Shown here piece after piece: positions 10,246 to 14,504 of a DNA stretch of 43,943 nucleotides. The DNA is taken from NCBI GenBank assembly GCA_008015595.1, contig SSFW01000014.1, forward strand, positions 1 through 43,943. The letters are read 5' to 3'. The first letter of the stretch is position 1, and each line of letters starts with the position of its first letter. The notes beneath the pieces were generated by a model. It was not told where the DNA came from. It made no database searches and saw nothing but the letters and a program-made list of their open reading frames with translations. Both the position numbers and the translations under genes were made by a program. This DNA is from Nitrosomonas sp. (GTDB lineage: Bacteria > Pseudomonadota > Gammaproteobacteria > Burkholderiales > Nitrosomonadaceae).

Positions 10246-12483
10246 TTAGAAAGCTGCACTGAAGCCAACTTGACTACTAAACCCCGCTTCTGGCGCAAAG
10301 CTGCGTAAAAACGAAGTGGAATTACGAATCGTCGCATTGGTCATGTTAGACAGCTTTGCAAAGAAGAGAATCTTCATACGATCTGACGCTTTCCAATCAT
10401 AAGTAATATCAAGATCTAATCGGTTATAGCCCGGTGTCTCAGTCTCTAGAAGACCTGGTCTATTTTGCTCCAACGCATGCGTATAGCGCAAAAGGCTTCT
10501 CCATTGCAGCCATTGCAATCCAAACTCAGCACCAAACCGCAATGGTGGGAGTCTTGGAACATCGCCCAATGATCCACTTTGGAATGAACCTCGTACATAA
10601 TCTGAAAAGAATGTGAAGCGCGGATTATAAGTAGCAGCTATTTTAGGGCGCATGGTAATTTCAGCTTCATAGCCCCAGAAATTTGCAGTATCAGCCTGAT
10701 AGCCAAAAATGGGTAGGCAATTTCTTAAATTTGCACAAGCTAATTGGAAACGCGGGGGATCGGGCGCAAAGTTAAAAAAGAAACCTTGGTTTTTTAAATA
10801 AATAAAATCTTCAACAGATTTATAGTAACCATTCGCATTAAAAGAAATGACATTACCAGCGTAACGTAGCCCTAATTCGTAATGATCTGTTTGTTCAGTA
10901 TTTAAATCCATGCGCCCTAATTGATAGCTACGTGTAGCAAAATTAGGACCCGATGCAAATAGCTCTTGAACATCAGGGCTACGTTGCGCACGTTGCCAGT
11001 TTAGGAAAAATGACGTCAGTGGCAATATTTCGTAATTTAAGCTAGCCGCCAGCGAATAGGTCAAATAATTGAGCGAATTAGGCAGCGGCAGCGGCGAGGG
11101 AATACCGGCAAGCCGCAGCTCATTGCTTTTAGGCGAGGTGGTTTGGTGCTCTATTCGCCCCCCTAATTCAAATGTCGTTCGATCGTTAACGACTAGTGTC
11201 TCGGTTAGAAAAAAACCGATTGAATCTACATTCGATGATGGAGTAAACGTTTCTAGACCTGTCGCAGAAAAATTACGGTTCTGCCATTGCATCCCGAATT
11301 TACCATCCAACCAATCTCCCTTCTGGTGATTCATTTCCAGACGAGATTCCCAAACAGAATTACCAAATCGGGTCAGTGTAGAATTTCTTGCCGATATATT
11401 TTTATCAAAGTCTTTATGATCATAATCGATATAGCTGAGCTTGGCTTTGATCGATGGCAATGCTCCCCAGTAGGTTTTCCAGAAGCCTTCTAAATCGTAG
11501 CGTCGCTGATTCATATCAATACGAATTGCTTCTTGCTCGGATCGACTACTGTCACCGTGACCAGGAACACCTGGAGGGATGCCATAGTTTCTTGCAGTTT
11601 CATGATAGCTCCCACCCAAATAACCATATTTTCCTACCAAAGAAATTCCGGCAGAGCCACCCTGGCTATGTGAATGGCTATTTTGAATCACATTATTACT
11701 ATTCGTAGTAGGTTCTACCTGAAATTGCTGCCGAATCGCCGATTCATCCAATGCTGAGCCGGGAATGTGCATGTTATTGGCTGATCGATGAAAGTAATCA
11801 AAATGTAAGGCAACCATGCTGCGCCCAATATCCAAACTTATCATTCCCGCCTTTTCACCCGGATTATGGTCAAAACGAAAATCAGTTCTGCCGGACATAC
11901 CATTCGTCGGAATTCGATCAGGAATACGCTGGTGACTGATATCGACGACACCCCCGATTGCGTTTGCTCCATACTGCAGGGTTGCTGGGCCTTTTATAAC
12001 CGTTATTCCATTCGCCAGAATGGGATCAAAAGGAATTGCGAGATCGGGGCTAATCGCAGAAAGATCATGCATACCGATCCCATTTTGCATGACTCGCACG
12101 CGAGGACCGCTCATACCTCGAATGACAGGCTGTCCTACACCGGGACCATAGGAAAGATTGCTAACGCCAAGCTCTCGTTCGAGCATTCTGCCCAGCGTAC
12201 TTTCTGTACGCAAACGCAATTCATTGCCTTTTAACTTATGTATAGGCTCAGCAGTTACCGCTGACGAGGCTGATGTTTCAACCGTAATCGTTTCAAATTT
12301 AACTGTATTGCTGGGATTGGGTGTAATTGCAGGAATTGCAGATGAATCAGCAACAACAACAGGTTTCGGTTGGTTAAATTGATTGGTTGCTAGGGCATTA
12401 CTTATCGATAAAACTGAAGCTGAAGCCAAAGCGAAAACCATGCCGATCGATCTGATCAGCACATTGTTGCACCGCTGTATCAT
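10246..12483 (-). CDS. TonB-dependent outer-membrane receptor, ZnuD-like
   Basis: 745 aa; plug domain GVGQPVIRGMSGPRVRVMQNGIGMHDLSAISPDLAIPFDPILANGITVIKGPATLQYGANAIGGVVDI, His-rich loop NSHSHSQGG, C-terminal beta-barrel strand ending in F. Confidence 0.9.
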   Translation of the reverse strand: MIQRCNNVLIRSIGMVFALASASVLSISNALATNQFNQPKPVVVADSSAIPAITPNPSNTVKFETITVETSASSAVTAEPIHKLKGNELRLRTESTLGRMLERELGVSNLSYGPGVGQPVIRGMSGPRVRVMQNGIGMHDLSAISPDLAIPFDPILANGITVIKGPATLQYGANAIGGVVDISHQRIPDRIPTNGMSGRTDFRFDHNPGEKAGMISLDIGRSMVALHFDYFHRSANNMHIPGSALDESAIRQQFQVEPTTNSNNVIQNSHSHSQGGSAGISLVGKYGYLGGSYHETARNYGIPPGVPGHGDSSRSEQEAIRIDMNQRRYDLEGFWKTYWGALPSIKAKLSYIDYDHKDFDKNISARNSTLTRFGNSVWESRLEMNHQKGDWLDGKFGMQWQNRNFSATGLETFTPSSNVDSIGFFLTETLVVNDRTTFELGGRIEHQTTSPKSNELRLAGIPSPLPLPNSLNYLTYSLAASLNYEILPLTSFFLNWQRAQRSPDVQELFASGPNFATRSYQLGRMDLNTEQTDHYELGLRYAGNVISFNANGYYKSVEDFIYLKNQGFFFNFAPDPPRFQLACANLRNCLPIFGYQADTANFWGYEAEITMRPKIAATYNPRFTFFSDYVRGSFQSGSLGDVPRLPPLRFGAEFGLQWLQWRSLLRYTHALEQNRPGLLETETPGYNRLDLDITYDWKASDRMKILFFAKLSNMTNATIRNSTSFLRSFAPEAGFSSQVGFSAAF

Positions 12484-13364
12484 AAACCTGCTGCTTGATA
12501 GAAAGTCTCAATTGCACCGTGATCACTAAGGCCGCCCAATTCACCACCGAGCGTATAAATTTTTCCATCTAAACTGCCAAGGCAAGTACCATTGTTGTAA
12601 CACCGTGCATAATAGCCTTCGATAAAACGACTTTTTACTGCGTGTGGGAAGTAACGACTGTAATTCTCTTCAGCCCAATTAAAAAGTGCATCCATTCGAT
12701 TATAATTGTTTAACTTGAGCGCTGGAGGGACATCCAAAGCTTCACTCAATGCTAAACCATTAAAATTCCCTTTTGCGTTGATATGAAAAACTAACGCGAA
12801 CGGCTGGGAGGGTTGATAAAGAATATTTTCTCCTGTCGCATCAACACCGAGAACTGTAATGATCACCATATAGGCACCATCCTCCGGTGCTTGACCATCT
12901 GGTTTTTGAATTTTGAAAATAGGATGAGATTCGAATGTACTGGTATTCGTTAAATTTTCAATAAATCCTTGAATCCCTTTACCTTCTGAAGCTGATATCC
13001 GCTTTTCATCTGATAATCGACTAATGATAATTTGCTCTGAAAATCCTTCGGCCAACCATTGCGATTGCTCACTTGACCATTTCATCAAATGCGTTTCTGC
13101 TTGATACCCAAAAATTCCCCCTTGATCAAATTCTATGCCGGTGAATCCTGCATCACCCATGCGATAAGGAGCAATGGAATCAGTAAATCGAATTATAAAA
13201 GCGCTAAGATCACCCAATTTAGTGCCTTGTTTTCTGATATCAATTTCAATAGCCCCCTCTCGCCAGGCAAAACCCATATTGGGTTCACCTTCATGAGCAA
13301 CCGCATTGATACCAAAACTGATTAGTAAGATTATCAAAACAGCACAATTAAATTTTTTGATCAT
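12480..13364 (-). CDS. Secreted protein, paralogue of the product at 13521-14504; start/stop overlap with the TonB receptor
   Basis: 294 aa with signal peptide; C-terminal LFNWAEENYSRYFP...GYYARCYNNGTCLG...GGELGG module; overlaps TonB receptor start by 4 nt. Confidence 0.8.
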   Translation of the reverse strand: MIKKFNCAVLIILLISFGINAVAHEGEPNMGFAWREGAIEIDIRKQGTKLGDLSAFIIRFTDSIAPYRMGDAGFTGIEFDQGGIFGYQAETHLMKWSSEQSQWLAEGFSEQIIISRLSDEKRISASEGKGIQGFIENLTNTSTFESHPIFKIQKPDGQAPEDGAYMVIITVLGVDATGENILYQPSQPFALVFHINAKGNFNGLALSEALDVPPALKLNNYNRMDALFNWAEENYSRYFPHAVKSRFIEGYYARCYNNGTCLGSLDGKIYTLGGELGGLSDHGAIETFYQAAGL

Positions 13365-13426
13365 TATTCTTAATTAAACTCACTCGATTTATTGCGGGTA
13401 ATGCTAGCTCAGGGGAAGTTGAAAGA

Positions 13427-13449
13427 CAATGCGACAAATTGTCGCATTG
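13427..13449. promoter_or_regulatory. Perfect 23-bp palindrome, candidate operator for the divergent secreted-protein/TonB promoters
   Basis: caatgcgacaa-a-ttgtcgcattg (11-1-11) in the 156-bp intergenic space between divergent starts 13364(-) and 13521(+). Confidence 0.8.
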
Positions 13450-13520
13450 CCCCGATAGGGAATATTTGTTAGATTGGTACGCGTCTATACCCTGTCAACC
13501 ATCATTTCAGTTATTTCTTC

Positions 13521-14504
13521 ATGTCACTTTATCGCTTGATTTTCGCTGCTGTAATAAGTCTACTCATACCACTCCCCTCATTTGCTGGAGAGCTGCACCA
13601 ACATATTGAAGTCAACACAACGAATCAACGTGTGCAAGTCAATTTTTGTCGCCCTGAGAGAGGCTGTAGTTTGGTAAAACCAGAAACGATTGGATTACCG
13701 CCAGGCCAGCTCCCGCTTGATAAACTAACGGGTACAGCAATTTACGTTTCTGAATTTACGGCGCTTCCTAACGGAATTGCAATTGATAGTCCTGGATTTG
13801 AAGGTATTGCGGGTGATTTGAATGCAGGTGACCGTGTTCATTATGTGGCAAGTAGCCGACTTAGCTTCTGGAATCCTGCTGAACGTCAATGGTCTTTAGC
13901 ACCAGAAGGAACCCGTATTCGTTTAGCGGGCGGTTTAGATTTACAACCAGATCAATCCTGTGGTCAAGTGTTTTGTCTTCCAAAAGCTGTCGAGGGATTT
14001 ACGATATTTAATCGACAAGGTGTTTCAGGCATCAACTCGTTAATCGTGGGTGAAGCTCGTCCTGATGGCTCACTACACACCCATCTGGATTGGATTCTTG
14101 AAACAGAACAAGGTGCTCCGAATGGACCGATAGGCGCTTATTTAGTTGAGTTAAGTATAAGGACTGACGCTTATCCCACTCCTTCTGCACCTTTCTGGAT
14201 CATGTTTAATCATAGTCTACCAATCACTGAATTTCAGCAAGCGGTTGCAGACCGGGTTTTGAAAACCAGCATTGATACTGCTTTGGCTGATAAGCTTTTT
14301 GACTGGGCTGAATCAAATTACCTATCGCTATTTCCGAATAAAACCACTTCTTTTATTGCGGTAGGGTATTATGCGCGCTGCTATCAAAACGGAACTTGTG
14401 TCGGGGTTAGAGATAATTATGTTTTTGCTGTTGGTGGAGAATTCGGTCCCAATGTAGTCAATCTTGGAGAATTTTCTTCATTATTAAAGTTGGCAGGATT
14501 TTAG
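13521..14504 (+). CDS. Secreted protein, paralogue of the product at 12480-13364
   Basis: 327 aa with signal peptide (MSLYRLIFAAVISLLIPLPSFAGE); C-terminal LFDWAESNYLSLFP...GYYARCYQNGTCVG...GGEFG module; central SLHTHLDWIL / GAYLVELSI / APFWIMFNH. Confidence 0.8.
   Translation: MSLYRLIFAAVISLLIPLPSFAGELHQHIEVNTTNQRVQVNFCRPERGCSLVKPETIGLPPGQLPLDKLTGTAIYVSEFTALPNGIAIDSPGFEGIAGDLNAGDRVHYVASSRLSFWNPAERQWSLAPEGTRIRLAGGLDLQPDQSCGQVFCLPKAVEGFTIFNRQGVSGINSLIVGEARPDGSLHTHLDWILETEQGAPNGPIGAYLVELSIRTDAYPTPSAPFWIMFNHSLPITEFQQAVADRVLKTSIDTALADKLFDWAESNYLSLFPNKTTSFIAVGYYARCYQNGTCVGVRDNYVFAVGGEFGPNVVNLGEFSSLLKLAGF

Follow-up and report, generated by a model that had tools for sequence, protein, structure and literature searches.

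Bacterial ammonia oxidisers rely heavily on copper and iron, and to our knowledge their copper acquisition and its regulation have been little described. In methanotrophs, copper acquisition has been linked to proteins of the MbnH and CorA types. For zinc, the outer-membrane receptor ZnuD binds its metal through Asp99, His100, Glu340 and His499, and is structurally near the haem receptors (PMC4557270), whilst ZepA/All3515 is a secreted zinc protein under Zur repression (PMC10957091). Redox two-component systems of the RegB/RegA type are recognised by a GGxxNPF-type motif, an H-box and a redox-box Cys in RegB (PMC8191878), and the consensus for the Bradyrhizobium regulator RegR is GNGRCRTTNNGNCGC, as quoted in PMC5506826. 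Herein we describe a ZnuD-like TonB-dependent receptor and two secreted proteins, designated SecA and SecB, encoded within a 43,943 nt stretch of Nitrosomonas sp. DNA (contig SSFW01000014.1; hereafter the window). Comparison of these sequences with relatives suggests a zinc-type module that has shifted to RegB/RegA control, has lost its zinc site, and probably serves copper or a metal complex, a reading that we regard as evenly poised.

A conserved gene trio and its palindromic operator

The secA, receptor and secB genes are kept together across approximately ten Nitrosomonas species, providing the neighbourhood conservation that an earlier, sequence-only reading of this DNA had proposed as a check. 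Orthologous trios occur at nine named loci (from N. marina Nm22 and Nm71, N. halophila Nm1 and metagenome-assembled Nitrosomonas) and in approximately nine further Nitrosomonas genomes, some of these being partial, some probably representing the same organisms, and with possible overlap with the named loci; this recurrence indicates that the three-gene arrangement is not a product of chance. The same reading had described secB as divergent from secA and the receptor, which is genuine in the window but peculiar to this genome, as relatives in which the whole locus is readable carry secA–receptor–secB in that order on a single strand, normally as one operon. A search of the PLSDB plasmids returned no SecB homologue.

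The window has an 11-1-11 palindrome between secA and secB, and thus the rearranged secB is still positioned close to the same element that precedes secA. Every orthologue with upstream DNA examined has TGCGACA-NNN-TGTCGCA upstream of secA with at most a few changes, the box being conserved mostly letter for letter although the remaining upstream sequence has diverged. A search of 23 Nitrosomonas genomes for this box with ≤2 mismatches yielded 347 strand-wise matches (near-palindromic sites being scored on both strands), compared with 14 for a reversed control; in 14 genomes of other families, no excess over the control was detected. The window box differs from the Bradyrhizobium RegR consensus at 1 position, and that of locus L042 at 0, with approximately 5e-5 of random 15-mers fitting this consensus within 1 mismatch. 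No Zur-like site was found between secA and secB, and control of the window operon by Zur or Fur was rejected for want of a site. A box match inside chemotaxis genes (C138), and similar single sites with 2 mismatches, were treated as likely chance occurrences.

The window genome also possesses a RegB/RegA-type operon with a box upstream, the best matches of which are ActS/PrrB/RegB (NF033792) and ActR/PrrA/RegA (NF033791). Its RegB has the quinone motif in the form GGSTNPF, along with the H-box and the redox-box Cys, and RegB was found in 37/37 Nitrosomonas genomes searched. With regard to the position of the box, 26 of the 30 Nitrosomonas loci fetched show it no more than 300 nt ahead of regB (in-gene control, 6–8), usually 54–80 nt from the reference point; 24 of these sites have ≤2 mismatches, one has 3 and one has 4. 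The box additionally precedes all four pairs of CorA-like and MbnH-family di-haem genes, located in four Nitrosomonas genomes, and 29/29 tested loci of a genus-wide secreted family, as well as genes for TlpA proteins, BNR-repeat proteins, a PepSY protein and several TonB receptors. Through this regulation shared with copper-linked genes, copper becomes a possible leading candidate for the ligand. We propose tentatively, and with somewhat less than even confidence, that copper or metal acquisition at the Nitrosomonas outer membrane belongs to a RegB/RegA redox regulon, which has recruited a zinc-type receptor module with its zinc site lost. In the literature searched, no paper was found that connects RegA/RegB with the regulation of metal uptake in Nitrosomonas.

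The CorA-like/MbnH-family pairs with their upstream RegA-type boxes are found at L087:494-3287 and L171–L173. The genus-wide secreted family is present in 33/37 Nitrosomonas genomes (e.g. L081:4935-5729, L084:8791-9549 and L101:301-1134) and absent from the sampled other families of the order. Its members carry AFA/HTRL..., with an apparent mature His after the slash, end INRDMP.I...QIWP, have no Pfam or NCBIfam match and, by eye, resemble YcnI-like copper proteins.

The receptor, its zinc site and zinc-linked homologues

The receptor had been called ZnuD-like from sequence, and its nearest match is indeed ZnuD, both amongst NCBIfam models (NF038289, 303 bits, below the cut-off of 950) and amongst solved structures (4rdr, E 1.8e-47), with whole-length similarity and the TonB plug and barrel typical of ZnuD recognised by Pfam; haem-receptor models also score. 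The chain numbering of 4rdr is offset by 14, which allowed all four ligand positions to be placed in the alignment. Here the window receptor has Asp, Leu, Asp and Asn, and so does not retain a full zinc site. This decay extends across the Nitrosomonas branch: the His100 equivalent is lost in 8/8 members (Leu, or Tyr in N. halophila) and that of Glu340 is Asp in 6/8, with the His499 equivalent retained in all except the window. By comparison, the four ligands are intact in every readable receptor outside the branch, one fragment (L148) ending before H499. In a tree, the eight branch receptors cluster with full support, and their nearest relative is the zinc-type receptor of locus L161. The His/Asp-rich loop 3 of ZnuD has no match in the window receptor, and the suggestion that an NSHSHSQGG segment forms a metal site was rejected, as orthologues read NSNANSQGG, NSHASSQGG and NSRTQSQGG.

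A second ZnuD-like receptor in the same genome, at L148 (G000:C51), bears SPDHPV, maintains the equivalents of Asp99, His100 and Glu340, and adjoins the genome's second Fur-family gene. These two are probably the genome's own zinc receptor and Zur.

A profile built on the secreted domain (A3), run against samples of 369 genomes from the class and 399 from the phylum, detected relatives in only 4 and 2 other genomes, respectively, so the secreted family appears to be rare. The combination of a receptor with two secreted proteins nevertheless recurs in distant proteobacterial homologues. At loci L108–L110 and L112, from other Nitrosomonas, the module is divergent from, or near, genes for a COG0523-type GTPase and a Zur-like Fur-family protein, and the intergenic regions have in common a Zur-like palindrome, TGATATAACATATCA (GTTATGTTATAAC in L108). 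A ZrgA zinc-uptake gene sits beside the homologous module of L161 (the ZrgA label is from Pfam, those of COG0523 and Zur from sequence motifs read by eye). Because several of the distant homologues adjoin a Zur, COG0523 or ZrgA gene, or a genuine ZepA gene, the ancestral role of the module was probably in zinc. Two genomes, G002 and G025, harbour both the window-type module and the Zur-linked kind, which argues for separate jobs. In this way, the metal-uptake role proposed from the sequence gains a metal context from its distant counterparts, but plain zinc uptake is weakened, since the ZnuD ligands have decayed in the branch and the operator is of the RegR/RegA type rather than a Zur box.

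At L115, in genome G041, a single cluster contains a ZnuD-like receptor, two SecA/SecB homologues, a Zur-like gene, two COG0523-type genes and, at L115:2583-3539 on the minus strand, a ZepA-like PEP-CTERM protein bearing HGNHFH. SecA and SecB gave no close alignment with this ZepA-like protein.

The secreted partners and features of the locus

The proposal that the two secreted proteins are paralogues with a common C-terminal architecture holds: SecA and SecB share 28 % identity over 272 aa (E 3e-19), and have the same C-terminal domain (LF.WAE.NY..FP...GYYARCY.NGTC.G). Each has a hydrophobic N-terminus with an AxA or similar cleavage pattern, as judged by eye, and the predicted mature N-terminus of SecA is an invariant His (...AVA/HEGEPN, cleavage at the slash). 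SecB has six invariant Cys and the HxH of the secreted-domain family, of which SecA keeps only the second His. Searches of both proteins against Pfam and NCBIfam models assigned no family. Membership of the ZepA/All3515 family, which had been suggested for them with some uncertainty, was not borne out, as both lack the H-x2-9-H-F/Y-H motif and PEP-CTERM, and the ZepA motif is present only in the ZepA-like protein of L115. In place of the PEP-CTERM tail of the L113 and L115 homologues, SecA and SecB carry the WAE/GYYARCY domain, which is possibly a sorting or anchoring domain. This domain, which has no Pfam or NCBIfam match, is also borne by many otherwise unrelated Nitrosomonas proteins.

The positions earlier given for the three open reading frames were confirmed, including the 4 nt overlap of the receptor and secA at 12480-12483 (Table 1). 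Beyond the 3′ end of the receptor lies a CADD-family gene (TIGR04305; 9435-10184), and downstream of secB is dnaJ, with no evidence placing either gene in the module.

Table 1. Positions of the module's genes, operator and notable residues within the window
Feature	Positions	Strand	Basis or remark
TonB-dependent receptor, ZnuD-like, 745 aa	10246-12483	-	NCBIfam NF038289, Pfam plug + barrel, PDB 4rdr
SecA, secreted partner 1, 294 aa	12480-13364	-	gene upstream of receptor
SecB, secreted partner 2, 327 aa, SecA paralogue	13521-14504	+	
Operator CAATGCGACAA-A-TTGTCGCATTG, RegR/RegA-type box	13427-13449	.	~62 nt from secA, ~71 nt from secB
Receptor Asp147-Leu148, equivalent to ZnuD Asp99-His100 (His lost)	12040-12045	-	alignment + ligands of PMC4557270
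Receptor Asp358, equivalent to ZnuD Glu340	11410-11412	-	receptor alignment
Receptor Asn514, equivalent to ZnuD His499 (His in orthologues)	10942-10944	-	receptor alignment
Receptor NSHSHSQGG segment	11656-11682	-	His residues not conserved
SecA C-terminal domain (LFNWAEENY...GYYARCYNNGTCLG...GGELGG)	12483-12704	-	
SecB C-terminal domain, confidently modelled part (pLDDT ~80-92)	14277-14501	+	
SecB His186-Thr-His188 (LHTHLDW), HxH of secreted-domain family	14076-14084	+	invariant in SecB

Proposed mechanism, alternatives and relation to known systems

In the scheme that we consider, SecA, the receptor and SecB would act as a single outer-membrane uptake unit, derived from a zinc-linked type comprising a ZnuD-like receptor and two secreted HxHL-domain proteins. 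Within the Nitrosomonas branch, Zur control would have been swapped for a RegA/RegR-type redox operator as the receptor's zinc site decayed. RegB would detect an altered quinone or redox state, and RegA would then act at the palindrome, driving secA and the receptor leftward and secB rightward. Once exported, SecA and SecB may stay at the surface or be released, where they could bind a metal, copper being the likeliest, or a metal complex by way of the HxH of SecB, the N-terminal His of SecA and disulphide-rich regions, before passing this cargo to the receptor for TonB-dependent import.

Several points weigh against this scheme. Binding by RegA is deduced from the similarity of the box and its place upstream of regB, and the two regulator genes themselves score below their NCBIfam cut-offs (RegB 271/350 bits; RegA 200/250 bits). 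The case for copper derives from co-regulation, and the CorA match, at 22.4 bits, is likewise under the Pfam cut-off of 27. Zinc could still be the receptor's cargo, held by new ligands or imported as a complex. AlphaFold models of the secreted proteins, built from 9–10 sequences, have a mean pLDDT of 59–60, insufficient to model the metal-binding domain, and a PDB fold search with the SecB model returned nothing at E ≤ 0.001.

It is conceivable, if unlikely, that the module still performs plain zinc uptake, with SecA and SecB as scavengers for a receptor of the ZnuD type (as the sequence-only reading had envisaged) and regulation alone altered. The closeness of the receptor to ZnuD, the HxH that SecB has retained from zinc-linked homologues, and the adjacency of homologous modules to Zur-like, COG0523, ZrgA and ZepA genes, with TGATATAACATATCA and its variants at L108–L110 and L112, are consistent with this. 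It sits poorly, however, with the branch-wide loss of His100, the changes at Glu340 and His499 in the window, the lack of a Zur-like site between secA and secB, and the second receptor with Asp99, His100 and Glu340 intact in the same genome. A similarly improbable option is that the receptor takes up an organic complex, haem or another cofactor instead of a free metal ion; with the buried metal site gone, there is no longer an argument for a bare ion, and the structural proximity of ZnuD to haem receptors (PMC4557270) and the scores to haem-receptor models point the same way. Against this stand the secreted partners, which belong to a zinc-associated family and keep the SecB HxH, and an operator held in common with copper-type genes.

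As for the palindrome, the alternative that a different genus-wide regulator binds it, with regBA merely one target, is decidedly doubtful. The RegA-type boxes in the literature are degenerate, with no clear motif reported in some studies (PMC5506826, PMC4263372), whereas the Nitrosomonas site is unusually regular. RegA itself is nonetheless favoured because the box fits the RegR consensus with 0–1 mismatches and recurs in position upstream of regB.

If the redox-controlled copper or metal scheme is correct, metal uptake for ammonia oxidation would be set by the redox state of the quinone pool. A genus-wide operator tying a redox two-component system to secreted proteins and TonB receptors would constitute a directly testable regulon. 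Moreover, the two versions of one uptake module, Zur-linked with a full zinc site and RegA-linked lacking it, at times within a single genome, offer a natural case for the study of change in receptor specificity.

When set beside known systems, the window module shares with ZnuD of Neisseria the whole-length similarity, plug and barrel, and the Asp99 equivalent, but differs in its other ligands, its unmatched loop 3, the lack of a Zur box and the possession of two secreted partners. It has in common with ZepA/All3515 a secreted partner of metal uptake, and the ZepA-like gene of G041 shares a Zur/COG0523 cluster with two SecA/SecB homologues, although SecA and SecB have neither the ZepA motif nor the PEP-CTERM tail. 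The Zur-linked modules of L108–L110 and L112 have the same three components, with receptors that align full-length (~37 % identity over the barrel), but these are divergent from COG0523 and Zur-like genes and display a Zur-like box, a full zinc site, and dockerin or other C-termini. The Nitrosomonas CorA-like/MbnH-family pair, recalling the CorA/CorB (MopE-type) and MbnP/MbnH copper pairs of methanotrophs, lies outside the window locus and is tied to it by the shared operator. Finally, as in the RegB/RegA (PrrBA, RegSR, ActSR) regulons, the RegB hallmarks and RegR-consensus boxes, including one upstream of regBA, are present, but the Nitrosomonas targets seemingly extend to TonB receptors and secreted copper- or metal-type proteins.

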